The notes under the pieces were generated by a model. It did no database searches. It was given only the letters and a program-made list of their open reading frames with translations, and was not told the DNA's origin. Positions 1 to 5,851 of a stretch of DNA of 5,852 nucleotides are shown here, piece after piece; the first letter of the stretch is position 1; each line of letters begins with the position of its first letter. The translations under genes and the position numbers were made by a program. The DNA comes from Pseudomonadota bacterium (GTDB lineage Bacteria > Myxococcota > UBA9042 > PHBI01), in NCBI GenBank assembly GCA_005772945.1, contig SXIE01000178.1:1-5852 (forward strand), written 5' to 3'.

Positions 1-138
1 ACCATCTCCGGCGCATCAAGCCACGCAGCCGTGACGCCCTGGACAGCGCCATCGCGGCCACTATGAATGCTCTGCCCACGGACCACATCCGCAACTGGTT
101 CAACGAGTGCGGCTATGGTCACTGAAGTCGATCGGCGC
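1..138 (+). mobile_element. Right-hand end of an IS630-like insertion sequence; boundary not resolved
   Basis: IS630-like elements usually end within a few tens of bases of the transposase stop, so the right boundary should fall soon after 125. The adjacent gene's surviving reading frame appears native from about codon 25 (the Cys codon at 139-141). IS630 elements normally insert at and duplicate a TA dinucleotide, but I find no TA between the transposase stop and 469-470. The junction therefore lacks the expected target duplication on this side, suggesting a later deletion or an imprecise end. I could not identify a terminal inverted repeat because the left end is outside the window. Confidence 0.5.
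3..125 (+). CDS. IS630-family-type transposase, C-terminal end (partial, cut by left window edge)
   Basis: Reading the + strand from base 3 gives 40 codons ending in TGA at 123-125. This frame is too short to stand out as an ORF but has a recognisable ending. It begins with HLRRIKPRSRDALDSAIAA and finishes with WFNECGYGH. The pattern of a basic LRR/LRK segment, a helix with R-ALD-AI-A, then a (W/Y)F-x-x-CGY-G ending is the usual C-terminus of IS630/Tc1-mariner-like DDE transposases, downstream of the last catalytic acidic residue. The DDE residues themselves would lie left of the window, so integrity of the enzyme cannot be judged. The following gene's first possible ATG (67) lies inside this frame, so the mobile element abuts or interrupts that gene. 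Family assignment is by pattern recognition, not by search. Confidence 0.78.
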   Translation, partial: HLRRIKPRSRDALDSAIAATMNALPTDHIRNWFNECGYGH

Positions 139-1161
139 TGTGACACGACCACGGCGACGGACACGGCCGTGCCGACCGGGCCCGAGGTCGCCACCTCGGC
201 GGACGCGACGGCGCCCGAGACCGCGACCGAGACCGCGACCGACGCGCGCGAGTCCACCGCCGCCGACAGCGCGCCGACCGCGGACACGGCGCCGGCCGAG
301 ACGACGCCGCGCCCAGGACCCACGCTGACCTTCGAGATCGAACCGATCACCGTGCAACCGGGCAAGGAGCGCCAGGTCTGCCGCACGGTCAACATCCCCG
401 GCGACGTGCCGTTCGACGTCGTGCGCTTCACGGCCGACATGGCCGGCCGCTCGCATCACTTCAACGTGTACAAGGTGATCGACGGCAAGGCGCTCGACCC
501 CGTCACGGGCGGCGATGGGGTCACCCACGACTGCGCGCCCGCGAGCGAGCAGCTGGCCGGCGACGCGGCCTACATCTTCGGATCGGCGACCCCGAATCGC
601 GTCATGGAGACGCCGCCCGGCGTCGCGTTCCACCTCGAGGCGGGGCAGCGACTCATCCTCGAATATCACGCCATCAACTACACGCAGGCGCCGGAGCAGG
701 CGGGCGTGAAGATCCACCTCGAGGGCGCGAGCCCCGACACGATCATCGCGCACCACGCCGAGATCTTCTGGTTCGCGAACTGGGGATTCCTGCTCCCGCC
801 CGAGACGGAGATCTCGGACACGGCCCAGTGCACGATCCCCTACGACGTCGAGATCTTCGGCCTGATGAGCCACTTTCACGAGCTCGGTACGCACTTCCTC
901 ATCGAGACGATCCGGGGCGATGGGGCGACGAACGTCTACGAGGACGACGACTACGCGCACCCGAAATACCAGGCCTTCGATCCGCCGCTGGCGCTCGACG
1001 CGGGCGACGCGATCCAATGGACCTGCACGTGGTTCAATTGGCGCACCGACACGGTGATGCCGAACAGGACCTCGAAGGACGAGATGTGCATGGTGTTCGC
1101 GGCCGGCTACCCGCGCGCGGGGCTGTCGGCCGAGCCGGCGCAGTGCAACGTCGTCTTCTGA
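67..1161 (+). CDS. Type II copper monooxygenase-like (PHM/DBH-like) protein, 5'-truncated and without export signal
   Basis: From the first ATG the product has 364 residues; an alternative ATG is at 115. Residues 26-85 are a Thr/Ala/Asp/Pro-rich linker. Residues 86-364 form a beta-rich domain carrying every ligand expected for peptidylglycine alpha-hydroxylating and dopamine beta-monooxygenase relatives: SHHFN (H130, H131), LEYHAINY (H201), MSHFHELGTH (H269, H271) and DEMC (M340). In characterised relatives HH plus the single His bind CuH, and HxH plus Met bind CuM, for ascorbate-dependent C-H hydroxylation. Cysteines at 105, 156, 255, 320, 341 and 360 fit an extracytoplasmic disulfide-bonded protein. 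Such bacterial proteins are normally secreted or lipid-anchored, yet no signal peptide or lipobox can be encoded: an in-frame stop (64-66) lies directly before ATG67 and the first 20 residues are transposase sequence read out of frame. C25 followed by Asp may be the original lipidated Cys. The gene may be a pseudogene or give a cytoplasmic product. Substrate is unknown. Confidence 0.82.
   Translation: MLCPRTTSATGSTSAAMVTEVDRRCDTTTATDTAVPTGPEVATSADATAPETATETATDARESTAADSAPTADTAPAETTPRPGPTLTFEIEPITVQPGKERQVCRTVNIPGDVPFDVVRFTADMAGRSHHFNVYKVIDGKALDPVTGGDGVTHDCAPASEQLAGDAAYIFGSATPNRVMETPPGVAFHLEAGQRLILEYHAINYTQAPEQAGVKIHLEGASPDTIIAHHAEIFWFANWGFLLPPETEISDTAQCTIPYDVEIFGLMSHFHELGTHFLIETIRGDGATNVYEDDDYAHPKYQAFDPPLALDAGDAIQWTCTWFNWRTDTVMPNRTSKDEMCMVFAAGYPRAGLSAEPAQCNVVF
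219..242 (+). repeat. Perfect 12-bp tandem duplication in the linker
   Basis: The unit gaccgcgaccga occurs twice back to back (219-230, 231-242). It falls in the low-complexity linker of the copper protein and encodes the repeated TATE/TATD residues at about 53-60. It keeps frame and looks like ordinary replication slippage in a disordered spacer. Confidence 0.85.
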
Positions 1162-1203: not shown

Positions 1204-3108
1204 CTACTGCGCCAGCGCGAGCAGGCCGTCGGAAAAGACGTCCGGCGCTGTGACGGCCGGCGGATGCGCGGCGAGGAAGGTCATCGCGTCCGCGAGCGGC
1301 GTGCCGCTGCGGCCCCCGCGCGACCCGATCCGAACGGCGGCGACCGCGAGCAAGGTCGGCTCGTCGCGGCGCAGCGTTTGGATGCTCGCCGGATCGGGTG
1401 CAGTGCCCGTGGCGGTCCAGATCCGGAGCCACGTTTCGAGCGCGAGGAGGCGGTCGCGATCGCGCCGGGACGCATCCAGCGCGGCTGCGAGCAGGGCCTC
1501 GTGCAGCGCGTAGGCCGCCGTGGGATTGCCATGCAGAGCCGCGAGGAGCAGCGGCGCGCGCTGGTCGTCGGCGAGGACGCGCTGCGCGGCGGTGACGAGC
1601 TCGAGCTCCGGGTCTTCGGCTTCGAGGGCCTGCGCGACGACCTCGAAGAGGCGCCGGTTCGAGGTGGCGTCGGCCTTGCGGATGAGGGCGGCCAGGACGG
1701 TCGCGCCGGCCGCCGTTTGGCCGGCCGCCAGGAGGTCGCTCGCGGCCGCGAGGCGGTTGTCGGGGTGGTGTGGGTCGTCGCTGACGAAGGGGGCAGGGGC
1801 CTCCGCGGGCGCTTCGTCGGCGGCCGTGACGTGCGCGCCCACCATGCGCAGCGCGAGGAGCTGCTTGGCCGGGCCGGGCGGGAGGACCTGGTAGGCCGCG
1901 AGGGCGGGGCGCGGGTCCTTGGCGATGGTGAGCTCGTCGTCGGGGGCCTTGCCGAAGGCGGCGCCAAGCTCGGTGGGCGCGAGCAGGTCGGCGAAGCGCA
2001 AGGCGTGCGGCTCGCGGCGCGCGAGCCAGCCGCGGCCGGCGCGTGCGTACTCGCCGATCGCCTCGAGCAGCGCGAGGTCCTCGGGTGACGGCGCGACGTC
2101 CCCGACGTCCGCGTCGGGCGCCGCTGTCCCGAGGACGAGGAGCCGCGTCTCCCAGCCGGCTCGAATGGGCTCGGGCGCCGCGCGCTCGGGCGCCGGAAAG
2201 TCGCGTCGTTCCCCGTCTGCGAGCAGGAGCCGGCGGGCGGCCAGCGCACGCTCGACGTCGTCGCTCGTGCCATGTTGCGTCAGCGCGAGCGTGAGAAGCT
2301 CGGTGCCGCGCGCAAAATCCCCGGCGGCATCGGCGGCCTCGGCGGCCGCTAGCGCGGGCCCCGGGCCGGCCTGCGCCGTCCAGTCCGCGATGCGCTCGAG
2401 CTCGCGCCCGAGCGCCGGGCGCCGCGCAAACGCCAGCGTGAGGTTCGCGATCTCCGTCCCGTCGCACACCGACGCGAGCCAGGCGTGCCCGTAGGGCTCT
2501 TTGCCGCGTGGCGCCGCATCCAGCGCCTCGACCGCCGCCCGGCGCAGCCCCTCGCCGAGCGCCGTCGCATCAGCCGCGCCGCGCAGCTCCGCGATCCGCC
2601 GCCCGAGCTCGACACCCGCCAGCGCCGCCGCCCTGAAACGCGCCACCGCCAGCTTGCGGCGCGCCTCCGACGACCCCCGCGGATCCAAGCGCGCCTCGAG
2701 CTTCCCGATGAGCTGTCGCGCCCGCTCGGCCTCGCCCGGCACGCGCAAGAGCAGCTCCAGCGCCGCCCACGCGCGGTCCGTCTGCCCGAGCTGCCCCGCC
2801 TCGGCCGGCTCCGGCAACGTCACGAGCTCGGCGGCCAGGGCCGCCCGGTCCTCGGGTTGCCAGCTCGCGAACGTCCGCGCCGCCGCACTGGCCGCCGGCA
2901 GCTCGCGAATCGGCGGCGGCACGAAGCCGCGCGCCCGCAGATGCGCGAACCCAAGCGCCAGCTCGCGGTCCCACGGCGCCATCGCCAAGAGCCGTCGCGC
3001 CCGCTCCCCGAGCCATCCCGCGACGTGTCGCCCGCTGCTCGCTGCGCGTACGCGCGCTGTGTCCGTGAGCGCCGCGAGGCGCTCGATCGGACTCAGCGCG
3101 CCCAGGTT
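1204..3108 (-). CDS. Large Ala/Leu-rich helical protein segment in the -1 frame of the preceding gene; probable C-terminal 634 residues of an 809-residue fusion
   Basis: From the A-run at 3107-3115 this frame reads NLGALSPIERLAALTDTARV and continues to TAG at 1204-1206, 634 residues. The frame remains open up to 3618 but upstream of the A-run it is Gly/Arg-rich shadow sequence. Protein-like composition and high G/C at third positions start exactly at the A-run. No ATG, GTG or TTG initiator with a Shine-Dalgarno lies near 3108; the first in-frame ATG is at 2980-2982, 42 codons later, with no good ribosome site. This supports expression as an extension of the upstream 179-codon frame. The sequence is Ala/Leu/Arg/Glu-rich, mostly predicted alpha-helical by eye, with many helix pairs typical of TPR- or HEAT-like solenoids, and a Pro/Ala/Glu spacer around TAADEAPAEAPAPF. 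I see no catalytic motif, signal peptide or membrane segment. I do not recognise the family; a scaffold or binding role is inference. If translated separately it would be about 592 residues from 2982. Confidence 0.72.
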   Translation of the reverse strand, partial: NLGALSPIERLAALTDTARVRAASSGRHVAGWLGERARRLLAMAPWDRELALGFAHLRARGFVPPPIRELPAASAAARTFASWQPEDRAALAAELVTLPEPAEAGQLGQTDRAWAALELLLRVPGEAERARQLIGKLEARLDPRGSSEARRKLAVARFRAAALAGVELGRRIAELRGAADATALGEGLRRAAVEALDAAPRGKEPYGHAWLASVCDGTEIANLTLAFARRPALGRELERIADWTAQAGPGPALAAAEAADAAGDFARGTELLTLALTQHGTSDDVERALAARRLLLADGERRDFPAPERAAPEPIRAGWETRLLVLGTAAPDADVGDVAPSPEDLALLEAIGEYARAGRGWLARREPHALRFADLLAPTELGAAFGKAPDDELTIAKDPRPALAAYQVLPPGPAKQLLALRMVGAHVTAADEAPAEAPAPFVSDDPHHPDNRLAAASDLLAAGQTAAGATVLAALIRKADATSNRRLFEVVAQALEAEDPELELVTAAQRVLADDQRAPLLLAALHGNPTAAYALHEALLAAALDASRRDRDRLLALETWLRIWTATGTAPDPASIQTLRRDEPTLLAVAAVRIGSRGGRSGTPLADAMTFLAAHPPAVTAPDVFSDGLLALAQ

Positions 3109-3632
3109 TTTTTTTCGGCCAACTCCACGCCGAGCGTGCGCGACCCGATGCGAAGCTCGGCCGGAACTCCAGAAAGCGCAGCGCCCAGCGGCACTTGCAC
3201 GCGCAGGTAACCGACCCCCTGAAGACCGAAGCCGACGTCCTCGGCTCCGAGCCGCGGCGCCATCGCCTCGGCCAGCGCCACCGCGATCGCGCCCGGCGTC
3301 GGTGCCTCGGCGTCCGCCATTGCCGCATCCCACGTCACCACCAGCTCGCGCCGCGCGTCCTCGTCGCGCTCGTCTGCGCGCCGCAAGACGAACACCGCCG
3401 GCCGTCCGCCCTCGTCCGCGGCCACGAAGCGCGGCGTCTGCAGCATCGCCGCGCGCCCCGCAGCGACCTCGACCGCGGCCACCCCGAGGCGCCCCGGACC
3501 GATCATCCCGACGTCCTCCGCCGGGATCCCGAGCCCGACCCCGAGCGCCCGCAAGACCCGCCCCGGCACCAACAACCCCGCGGACGCGCCGCCCGCCTCG
3601 AGCTCGAGCGTCTCCCAAAGCGCGACGCTCAT
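3093..3632 (-). CDS. 179-residue zero-frame product with DbpA-type RNA-binding-domain-like N-terminus; likely N-terminal part of a frameshifted fusion
   Basis: ATG at 3632 is well supported: it overlaps the upstream stop as ATGA and has GGGGAGG seven bases upstream. Residues about 18-65 read LLVPGRVLRAL, then GIPAEDVGMI, then RLGVAAVEV. This follows the pattern of the DbpA RNA-binding domain (PF03880 type: PGDIxGAL, aGIxxxxIGkI, hydrophobic strand), which in DbpA recognises a 23S rRNA hairpin. The match is by eye and moderate; no DEAD-box helicase core is present, so this would be a stand-alone use of the domain. Residues 75-105 contain a short beta segment and an acidic/Arg-rich stretch, and 135-173 look beta-rich (GYLRVQVPLG, ELRIGSRTLGVELA). 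The zero frame ends LAEKKTWAR-stop, five codons after an A-run on the coding strand; shifting -1 there joins 175 residues to 634 more. The short form may be a real second product or simply the failed frame of a broken gene. Confidence 0.75.
   Translation of the reverse strand: MSVALWETLELEAGGASAGLLVPGRVLRALGVGLGIPAEDVGMIGPGRLGVAAVEVAAGRAAMLQTPRFVAADEGGRPAVFVLRRADERDEDARRELVVTWDAAMADAEAPTPGAIAVALAEAMAPRLGAEDVGFGLQGVGYLRVQVPLGAALSGVPAELRIGSRTLGVELAEKKTWAR
3107..3115 (-). promoter_or_regulatory. A9 slippery tract: candidate -1 frameshift or transcriptional slippage site
   Basis: The + strand has nine T residues, so the coding strand reads GCC GAA AAA AAA ACC. In zero frame this contains the classical heptamer pattern X XXY YYZ as A AAA AAA (3114-3108). 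A -1 slip gives GAA AAA AAA followed by AAC CTG, entering the long downstream frame; an extra A in the transcript would do the same. A GGAG (3126-3123) lies eight bases before the heptamer, close to the spacing of the stimulatory Shine-Dalgarno of dnaX. About five bases after the tract, GGCGC (3102-3098) can pair with GCGCC (3082-3078), though such pairings are common at this GC content. A one-base homopolymer error or mutation would look the same. Confidence 0.55.
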
Positions 3633-5851
3633 GCGCTGGCCTCCCCGCTCGTCACGGCGACGACCGCTTCGCCTGCGTCCGCGGCCTCGGCGACCTCAGC
3701 AGCCTCGTCCTGAGCGGCGGCGCCTCGCGGCAGCGGCGGCGCTTCGACGACCTTGCCGACCACCGCGTAGGCCGTGCCGGCACCCTCGCCGACGCGCCCG
3801 ACCTCGCCCACAAAGCGCTTGCCGCGCCCCCCGAGCGCCGCCGGCTCATAGCCCTCGGGCAGCTGCTCGACTTCCATGCGCGGGCGCAGCCGGAATTCCT
3901 GTCCCGCCGGCCCGAGCAGCCGCGCGATGATGCGCTTCTTACGCCCGTCCCAGGCGATCTTCAGCGCCACAGGTTTGCCCGAGCCGATCCCGAACGTCTG
4001 CTCCTCGGCCTCGACGCGCTTGTGCAAATCTTCGGGCGCCAACGCGACCTTGACGGCCTTGCGATCCGCCACCCAGTACACGCGATAGTTGTCGCGGTCG
4101 CGCTCGTGCGTCGCGTCCTGCCCGCGGACCGGCGCCTTGATCACGTCACCCTTCTTGAGGTCCGCCGCCGCGACGCCCTCCGGCAGGTCCTCGTCGCGCA
4201 ACATGACGCGCAGGTGCCGATGGTCGTAGAACTCCGGTGCGTTGCGCTCGGTCACCTCGGCCAGCGCGTAGGCCGGGCTCGTGTAGACCACCTTCAGCTC
4301 GAACGCCTTGGCGGTCCCGATCCCGAGCTGGTCCTCGAACGCCACCAGCGTCCGCCAGCGCGCCTCGCGGTACTTCGGATCGCTACGGATCCGTCCGCGC
4401 AACGCCTGCACCTCGCCCGCGAGCGCGCCCTTGGCGTCCCCGAGCGGCCTCAAAACATCGTCGGCCTCGTCGAGGTCCTCGCCCCGCGCGACCAGCGCCC
4501 GCACGAGCCCGAGCCGCGCCTCGACCGGCCCGCGCTCGCTCACCGCGCGCCGCCCGATGTCGATCGCCGCCTCGACATCCTTGCCCTCCTCGGCCAGCGC
4601 CATCGCCCGCCGCCACACGAACTCCTTGCCCTTCAGCTCGCGCGCCTGCGTCAGCTTCGTGCGCGCAAACGCCACCGCCCGCTCGACCCCGAACGTCTCG
4701 CGCAGGAGCCCGATCAGCGCGTCGATGTCGTCCGCCGCGAGGCGCCCGAGCGCAGCCAGCGGCACCGACTTCATCACCTGATCGATGACCGTCGCCTCGA
4801 ACGGCGCCGCGAGCCGCTGCCGCAAATTACGCAGGAGCCGCTCGAAGAGGTGCCGCGCCGCCGTCTGGTCCTTCGGATCCGCCAGGATCGCTTTCTCCGA
4901 CAGCGCCAAGAGCGCGCCCTCGTTGCCCTGCGCCTCGAAAACCAGCGCCCGCGCCTCGTTCCACGCGTCCCCGCGCTCGCTCGACGCGAGCCCGAGCAGC
5001 TGCTGGACCTGGGTCGCGAGCGCGGCCGTCAGCGCCTTACTGCGCTCGAGGGTCCGAAGCAGCTTCGCCGTCCGCTTGGGATCCGCCGCCCGCTCGCGCA
5101 CGTCCTGCTCGAGCAGGGTCATGGTCTCTTTGGCGAGGTCCGCGGGCGCCGCGTCCGTGCGCGAGCGCAGTTGGACGAGCGTCGCGTAGACCTCGCGCTG
5201 CGCCTCGCTCGGCCCGAAACGCGCCTCGTGGTCGGCGATGAGCCCGCGCGCCGTCGCGAGCGCCTCCTGGCGTCCCGCCCCATCCGCACCACGCGCCCCA
5301 AGCAACACGAGCTTGATCCGATCGAGCGCCAGATCCGGGTGCTCGGGCAGGCGCTTTGACAGGCGCTCGACCGCCTCGCGCACGGGCGCCGCGAGTCCCT
5401 CGGCCGCCGCCTTCACAGCGTCGGTCCCCGCGTGGCCCGCCTGCGCGACCAGCCGCGTCGCCGCCGCCGCGAGCCGCGGTCCCGCATGCGGCTTGGCGAC
5501 CGCCTTGGCGACCAGCGCGAGATCCTCGGCCAACCGATCGTCCGCCGCGTCGTGCGATGCGAGCACGCGCTCCGCCCCGAGCGCCAACGCCAGCGCGCAC
5601 GCGAGGTCGTCCGGATCGCTCGTCAGCGCCTCGGCGAGCCGCCGCCGCGCCCCCAGAAAGAGCGTCTCGCCGGCCGCCCGCAGCCCGGGCTCGGTCGCCC
5701 CGAGCGCGCCGACCAGCCCGCCCGGGCCCGCGATGGCCTCGGCCACCAACACGCCCAGGTCATGGTCGGCCCAGGCCGTCCCGACGGCGCGCCCGCCGCG
5801 GTCGCCGAGCGCCTGCTCAATCAGCGCCCGCGTGGTCTCGGCGAGGCGTCG
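3629..5851 (-). CDS. Large helical-repeat protein with duplicated beta-rich C-terminal domain (partial, start beyond right edge)
   Basis: The frame is open from the window edge to TGA at 3629-3631, giving 740 visible residues. A GTG at 5752 is a possible internal start, but the 33 codons before it (starting RRLAETTRALIEQALGDR) look equally coding, so the true start is probably outside the window. Counting from GTG5752, residues 1-470 are Ala/Leu/Arg-rich helices with TPR-like spacing, for example around LVARGEDLDEADDVLRPLGD. Residues about 475-583 and 586-672 are beta-rich and form two related units: each begins GIG(T/S)xK then LK(V/I), and each carries LPEG about 45 residues later. The ending (675-707) is an Ala/Glu/Val-rich tail. 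No signal peptide or membrane segment is visible, so a cytoplasmic location is likely. The second gene overlaps it by four bases, so the two proteins are probably made together and may interact. I do not recognise the family. The beta units could be OB- or S1-like nucleic-acid-binding folds, but that is a guess. Confidence 0.8.
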   Translation of the reverse strand, partial: RRLAETTRALIEQALGDRGGRAVGTAWADHDLGVLVAEAIAGPGGLVGALGATEPGLRAAGETLFLGARRRLAEALTSDPDDLACALALALGAERVLASHDAADDRLAEDLALVAKAVAKPHAGPRLAAAATRLVAQAGHAGTDAVKAAAEGLAAPVREAVERLSKRLPEHPDLALDRIKLVLLGARGADGAGRQEALATARGLIADHEARFGPSEAQREVYATLVQLRSRTDAAPADLAKETMTLLEQDVRERAADPKRTAKLLRTLERSKALTAALATQVQQLLGLASSERGDAWNEARALVFEAQGNEGALLALSEKAILADPKDQTAARHLFERLLRNLRQRLAAPFEATVIDQVMKSVPLAALGRLAADDIDALIGLLRETFGVERAVAFARTKLTQARELKGKEFVWRRAMALAEEGKDVEAAIDIGRRAVSERGPVEARLGLVRALVARGEDLDEADDVLRPLGDAKGALAGEVQALRGRIRSDPKYREARWRTLVAFEDQLGIGTAKAFELKVVYTSPAYALAEVTERNAPEFYDHRHLRVMLRDEDLPEGVAAADLKKGDVIKAPVRGQDATHERDRDNYRVYWVADRKAVKVALAPEDLHKRVEAEEQTFGIGSGKPVALKIAWDGRKKRIIARLLGPAGQEFRLRPRMEVEQLPEGYEPAALGGRGKRFVGEVGRVGEGAGTAYAVVGKVVEAPPLPRGAAAQDEAAEVAEAADAGEAVVAVTSGEASA
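3640..3646 (-). promoter_or_regulatory. Shine-Dalgarno for the second operon gene
   Basis: The coding strand reads GGGGAGG, seven bases before the ATG at 3632. It lies inside the last codons of the upstream gene. Its strength and spacing settle the start of the second gene, and with the ATGA overlap it indicates translational coupling. Confidence 0.75.
3737..4330 (-). other. Tandemly duplicated protein domain, two units of about 90-110 residues
   Basis: Unit one is roughly 4330-4004 and unit two roughly 3997-3737. Shared landmarks in order are: Q-x(0-1)-(L/F)GIG(T/S), a Lys two residues later, LK(V/I) followed within two residues by Y or W, LPEG 46 versus 43 residues after GIG, then a hydrophobic beta stretch (DVIKAPVRG versus KRFVGEVGR) and another ending in YRVYWVA versus YAVVGKV. 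DNA identity is low, so this is an old duplication at protein level, not a recent repeat. Confidence 0.6.

Follow-up and report, generated by a model that had tools for sequence, protein, structure and literature searches.

The best-known prokaryotic recoding cases, as named in the part of PMC3711429 drawn on here, are insertion sequences, prfB and dnaX. In E. coli, dnaX (gamma and tau subunits of DNA polymerase III) produces its short form by -1 ribosomal frameshifting, and in T. thermophilus a run of nine A's in the same gene gives rise to the short form via slippage of transcription, the two other frames each having a stop nearby (excerpts of PMC5009743 and PMC1088944). In the split dnaX of Chlorobi the zero-frame stop of the short form lies directly after the shift site and frameshifting yields the long form (excerpt of PMC5009743), the tract holding 10, 9, 8 or 7 A's depending on species (excerpt of PMC3711429). 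Ribosomal frameshifting and transcriptional slippage are used as alternative solutions by insertion sequence (IS) elements (excerpt of PMC5009743). The kind of mechanism considered below is already known, and only a small number of families with conserved recoding have been recognized among the cellular genes of bacteria. The RNA-binding domain of the DEAD-box helicases DbpA, YxiN and Hera is also listed among the systems closest to the locus described here.

The window, i.e. the whole stretch of DNA that was analysed (5852 bases, 73.7% GC), is coding mostly on the minus strand and holds a two-gene operon in which gene 1 is the conserved upstream partner of gene 2 (Table 1). A GGAGG motif spans 12 to 8 bases upstream of the gene 2 start. 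A sequence-only reading of the window had placed a frame change of a long coding region exactly at a run of nine A's (A9), with a frame of 179 codons stopping just after the run and 634 open codons continuing in the -1 frame. All of this was confirmed, and the short product was found to end in ELAEKKTWAR. The -1 frame also proved coding-like from the tract onward, as had been proposed, with a GC content by codon position of 0.79/0.64/0.83 compared to 0.83/0.54/0.89 upstream and 0.82/0.57/0.91 in the rest of the long frame. The count of 42 codons without a start in this frame was correct for ATG, which first occurs at codon 43, and incorrect for TTG, which is present at codon 41; none of ATG, GTG and TTG occurs in the first 40 codons. 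The third frame after the A9 tract is open for 178 codons.

Table 1. Coordinates of the features in and around the gene 2 frame junction, given as positions in the window.
Feature	Position	Strand	Remark
Gene 1 (upstream partner)	3629..5851	minus	5' end beyond window; ATGA overlap with gene 2 start
GGAGG, Shine-Dalgarno-like, ahead of gene 2 start codon	3640..3644	minus	
Gene 2 zero-frame ORF, short product of 179 aa with two RRM-like domains (predicted)	3093..3632	minus	Relatives similar in length, same end point
First RRM-like domain (predicted), residues 6-85	3378..3617	minus	Predicted structure model and structural matches
Second RRM-like domain (predicted), residues 95-171, ending just ahead of the A-tract	3120..3350	minus	Predicted model and structural matches
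GGAG, Shine-Dalgarno-like, 8 nt upstream of heptamer	3123..3126	minus	Distance identical in G001
A9 tract (T9 on plus strand), gene 2 codons 173-176	3107..3115	minus	
Slippery heptamer A_AAA_AAA, zero-frame register	3108..3114	minus	
Stem-loop starting 6 nt 3' of heptamer, 8+5+7 bp stem, UCGC loop	3052..3101	minus	
Zero-frame TGA stop of gene 2, four codons past the tract	3093..3095	minus	
-1 frame extension, 634 codons and stop, helical-repeat-like C-terminal part of long product (predicted)	1204..3108	minus	

The nine T's at 3107-3115 of the plus strand were the sole run of six or more A's or T's in the window, for which a first-order Markov estimate gave an expectation of about 2e-4 runs of nine or more. 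The in-frame heptamer and the GGAG eight bases upstream of it were both found as previously described. The pair of AAA codons is a departure from local lysine codon habit, as had been argued from the neighboring gene; gene 1 uses 29 AAG and 3 AAA codons for lysine. The heptamer follows the X_XXY_YYZ pattern of -1 frameshift sites both in the window and in G001, the genome of a sister lineage. A GGAG is found 6-14 nt upstream of 4.9% of random positions in the window gene and 3.4% of those in the G001 gene, and the 8 nt gap common to the two therefore adds modest support only.

Relatives were compared at the DNA level through gene 1. A profile search of 377 genomes of the phylum matched 11, of which seven were convincing, all from the G001 class (52 genomes), and four were weak (G068, G202, G206 and G356, with the region of G356 being the one inspected). 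A scan of a genome collection yielded at least one locus, L001 (Deltaproteobacteria MAG), and its genome, G001, also contains the 5' part of gene 2. In the same 377 genomes two of the four matches of P0001 (L004 and L005, E about 7e-4) were rejected as spurious, judged from their frames. No clear conserved neighbors besides gene 1 were found in the regions of the relatives. A GrpE-like ORF was recognized by eye upstream in G124, and G210 and G148 carry different genes.

The frame junction was compared in the window and in six of the seven gene 1 genomes, G176 being left out as its sequence is cut off. A run of 7-10 A's was present at the homologous linker in six of these seven readable junctions: A9 in the window, A7 in G001 and A10 in each of G210, G200, G124 and G167. 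G148 has no run, its longest stretch of A's in the first 900 nt of gene 2 being five. Family members sharing the slippery run are about 25-33% identical. G001, at 42% protein identity, has the layout and spacings of the window around its A7; the zero frame meets a stop one codon after the run, compared to four in the window, and the -1 frame runs on without a stop until the contig ends. The putative shift would be -1 in window and G001 alike; the four A10 relatives are continuous, with the zero frame being the long frame. The +1/-1 frames of the latter stop after 1/4 (G210), 5/3 (G200), 4/2 (G124) and 19/2 (G167) codons, i.e. at least one shifted frame is closed within three codons in all four genes and both are closed within five in three of them. 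Gene positions with both shifted frames closed at least as soon made up 0.27% in G210, 0.28% in G200, 0.13% in G124 and 4.7% in G167, fractions that are counted from a slightly different codon than the distances at the junction. Tight stops in the shifted frames are not a feature of the window, given its open third frame, and slippage in the opposite direction there would produce a longer aberrant protein. GGAG was absent within 15 nt upstream of the run in all four A10 genes. Neither the coexistence of the two frame arrangements nor the stem-loop had been part of the sequence-only reading.

A run of ten A's is unique on either strand of the genomes of G210 (7.8 Mb), G124 (5.0 Mb) and G167 (5.4 Mb) and always sits at the junction, whereas G200 has four distinct runs with one at the junction. 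No ten-A run was found in the G001 assembly. Within the class, such runs were present in 25 of the 52 genomes and absent from 27. Among the matches listed, three of 28 other ten-A runs (L065, L068 and L073) lay in a frame that stayed open for more than 100 codons in either direction.

Many studied 3' stimulators are separated from the slip site by a spacer of 5-9 nt (excerpt of PMC5009743). The main stem of G001 begins 6 nt after the heptamer, as in the window. Folding of 60 nt in the window gave -40.8 kcal/mol with a z of -4.81, and equal stability was reached by 0 of 200 dinucleotide shuffles and 0.3% of 400 synonymous recodings. The stem of G001 was weaker at 60 nt (-33.4, z -1.12, 30 of 200 dinucleotide shuffles equally stable); set against synonymous recoding, 2% of 400 variants were as stable at 60 nt, 0 of 300 at 70 nt and 1.7% at 80 nt. 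In the A10 genes the share of synonymous recodings as stable at 60 nt was 0.90 (G210), 0.13 (G200), 0.31 (G124) and 0.29 (G167), and no consistent structure signal was seen across these genes. G210 and G167 were unremarkable relative to windows of their own gene. The structures downstream of the run in G200 (60 nt) and G124 (40 nt) fell within the strongest 2% of windows of their own gene, not so relative to synonymous recoding, and a strong stem is accordingly not exclusive to the two loci with a broken frame.

Further relatives (P0005 and P0012-P0018) were compared as proteins. A search with the short product returned eight proteins including that of the window. The other seven all end 1-4 residues after a Lys-Lys pair, namely in KKTWAR (two), KKKP (one) and KKA (four). 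The corresponding search with the downstream piece, over the best 7997 candidates, returned nine proteins, of which only P0005 (756 aa) combines the two parts in a single frame. A query made of residues 1-230 from P0005 found no other protein of its size class among the best 7997 candidates scored. In the N-terminal tree, which is poorly resolved, P0005 sits inside the short-ending group. The break has therefore possibly been lost or gained more than once within this group. A profile of the short product was also run on viral contigs, where 78 stretches fitted a pattern and none was confirmed.

Structure prediction suggests that the short product consists of two RRM-like domains and that the long product adds a helical-repeat part, with the frame junction falling in a low-confidence linker between predicted domains. 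No Pfam family matched the short product in any of eight members at E 10, and this includes the DbpA-type RNA-binding domain, for which no significant profile match was obtained. The A1 profile had no match to PDB sequences up to E 10. Gene 1 and the long part gave assorted weak Pfam matches, mostly of TPR type, none of which was above the curated cut-off where one was shown. Foldseek matches of the long form were weak only and mainly to helical-repeat proteins (best E 0.003, TM to query about 0.1-0.17), and the long part is described as helical-repeat-like on this account and no further. An Rfam scan of the window returned nothing at gathering score.

Taken together, the most probable reading, to which we assign roughly 72%, is that the A9 tract serves as a programmed recoding site through which gene 2 yields both a short and a long product. 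Most ribosomes would end translation at the zero-frame stop close by, giving the 179-residue protein, while a fraction would slip back by one base at A_AAA_AAA and synthesize a protein of about 809 residues that includes the helical-repeat part. Help with the -1 slip would come from the GGAG, 8 nt ahead of the heptamer, and from the stem-loop, which starts 6 nt after it, and slippage of RNA polymerase on A9 may contribute to the long form as well. In the A10 relatives the long protein would come from the zero frame and slippage, most likely transcriptional, would give the short one on account of the close stops in the shifted frames. The observations cover the layout of the sequence, how far it is conserved, how rare the run is across whole genomes and the statistics of the stem; what we infer here is the slippage itself, together with its mechanism and rate, RNA binding and a need for both products. 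The sequence-only proposal of a candidate programmed -1 frameshift gained support from the break in G001 with its equal GGAG and stem spacing, from the A10 relatives and from the Lys-Lys ends. The homologues were not uniformly continuous and free of an A-run, as G001 is broken at A7 and four relatives carry A10. Against a strict form of the recoding reading stand G148, which has no A-run, and P0005, which is continuous inside the short-ending group.

The strongest rival in the window is transcriptional slippage as the main route, in which RNA polymerase would add or drop A's on the A9 tract and the long protein would be read from transcripts in the other register, so that ribosomal slippage is not needed. 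It owes this rank to the orthologues differing in which frame is continuous, which, judged by a standard similar to the one applied by the GeneTack authors, is a sign of transcriptional realignment (excerpt of PMC3711429). Runs of nine A's slip efficiently in bacteria (excerpts of PMC1088944 and PMC5009743), and the A10 runs of the four relatives lack a close GGAG. The run in G001 is however only A7 and is flanked by ribosomal-type stimulators spaced as in the window, and the stems of these two loci stand out against synonymous recoding whereas those of the A10 genes do not. We consider transcriptional slippage unlikely to be the main route in the window, where it may act alongside ribosomal slippage.

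Gene fission would make the A-run incidental, with a second protein starting separately in the -1 frame, at TTG (codon 41) or ATG (codon 43). Of the nine downstream database proteins, every one except P0005 has an internal start in its annotation, with several on short contigs. When the extension is compared to P0005 by BLASTP, the match starts at residue 38 and leaves out the first 37 residues. The stretch ahead of the possible starts is however uninterrupted and coding-like, with a weak alignment to the linker in G001 and in the continuous relatives, and the linker of P0005 is predicted to be a long helix. Fission also leaves unexplained why the run is unique genome-wide in three relatives and why the spacing is shared with G001, and we regard it as improbable.

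Phase variation, in which replication slippage alters the tract length and cells switch between the long (on) and short (off) form, is slightly less probable again. Tract lengths do vary among the relatives (7, 9 and 10), and homopolymers can serve as phase-variation tracts (excerpt of PMC3711429). P0012 and P0013, which are 94% and 88% identical to P0001, nevertheless have their ends in the same frame, two protein searches (best 7997 candidates each) turned up no version of the window protein in the long frame, and the A10 length is identical in four distant genomes. Seven A's, as in G001, are in addition short for a hypermutable tract. Sequencing error, to which homopolymers are prone, or a recent loss-of-function mutation is highly improbable, as relatives on other contigs end at the same place, G001 has the same kind of break, a similar run lies at the same place in distant relatives and the 634 downstream codons are intact.

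Returning to the programmed recoding site, its history was considered using an unrooted tree of gene 1. The window groups with G001 (96/97) and then with G210 (99/99), G200, G124 and G167 form another group (100/100), and G148 attaches between the groups. A single gain of the run with one loss in G148 would fit this tree, as would a root near G148, and two gains are conceivable. Given this topology, the broken frame with its ribosomal-type cassette would most simply be derived in the window and G001. Tentatively, and at a little under even odds, we propose an undescribed RNA-binding-like family whose deeply diverged members have kept a two-length output while exchanging the coding arrangement and probably also the mechanism. 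The continuous A10 members would obtain the short form through slippage of RNA polymerase, and the lineage of the window and G001 would have changed register and acquired the GGAG, heptamer and stem-loop as a ribosomal cassette for the long form. Neither the gene family nor the coexistence of both arrangements in it was found in the literature searched, outside which most subscription papers lie, and searches for frameshifting or slippage in Myxococcota or Myxococcus returned nothing on the subject in titles and the opening parts of abstracts. That a slippery A-run is shared by a family lacking any Pfam match above cut-off, while runs of this kind are rare in the genomes concerned, suggests that both protein lengths are needed, and the locus would offer a first way into an undescribed two-gene operon.

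The closest counterparts of the locus are found in dnaX and in IS elements. As in orfA/orfB of IS elements, the zero frame of gene 2 is the first ORF and the shifted frame adds the second; gene 2 differs in having no transposase domain in a Pfam scan and in having a conserved upstream partner gene. As in dnaX, one gene would give two products with a common N-terminal part by way of an A-rich slip site, and the earlier likening of the site to dnaX was apt. The proteins are unrelated, neither piece of gene 2 having any Pfam match above cut-off and hence none to a clamp-loader ATPase domain, and in the window the zero frame leads to the short form and the shift to the long one. The T. thermophilus layout of a single ORF with a long A-run and near stops in the other frames (excerpt of PMC5009743) resembles that of the A10 relatives, and the split dnaX of Chlorobi is a close parallel in an unrelated gene. 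In contrast to the latter, the present family mixes continuous A10 orthologues with broken A9 or A7 ones. If the proposed reading is true, the family would be a cellular counterpart of dnaX in which one bacterial class hosts both mechanisms, and it would become the second system available for tracing how transcriptional and ribosomal slippage are exchanged.

Gene 1 is an undescribed partner of gene 2, the gene carrying the A9 tract. In the window, and likewise in each of the six relatives with a readable junction, it was observed directly 5' of gene 2, and its TPR-like matches all fell below the cut-off. The surroundings of the pair differed between genomes, as the neighbours in G210 and G148 were unlike those in G124, where an ORF recognized by eye as GrpE-like precedes gene 1 and gene 2 (locus L030). 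In the window, gene 2 is converged upon by a gene encoding a copper monooxygenase domain. An ORF resembling this protein by eye was also seen adjoining gene 2 at locus L001 of a relative.

Features surrounding gene 2 in the window
Feature	Position	Strand	Evidence or loci in relatives
Gene 1	3629-5851	-	L014, L015, L030, L031, L032
Protein with copper type II monooxygenase C-terminal domain	67-1158	+	Cu2_monoox_C, E 6.7e-11

Three database proteins covering the downstream piece alone (P0006, P0007 and P0008) share an annotated start, MALR..EAG, which reflects either genuine internal initiation or a gene-caller choice common to all three. The sister lineage G001 has no start codon at the matching site.

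Among the matches listed, a single long open frame (>100 codons on each side) spanned 3 of the 28 other ten-A runs opened, namely L065, L068 and L073. The last (G138:C109:11118-11127) lies within an apparently coding stretch, with 256 open codons upstream and 383 downstream in one frame, the product of which appears thioredoxin-like by eye.
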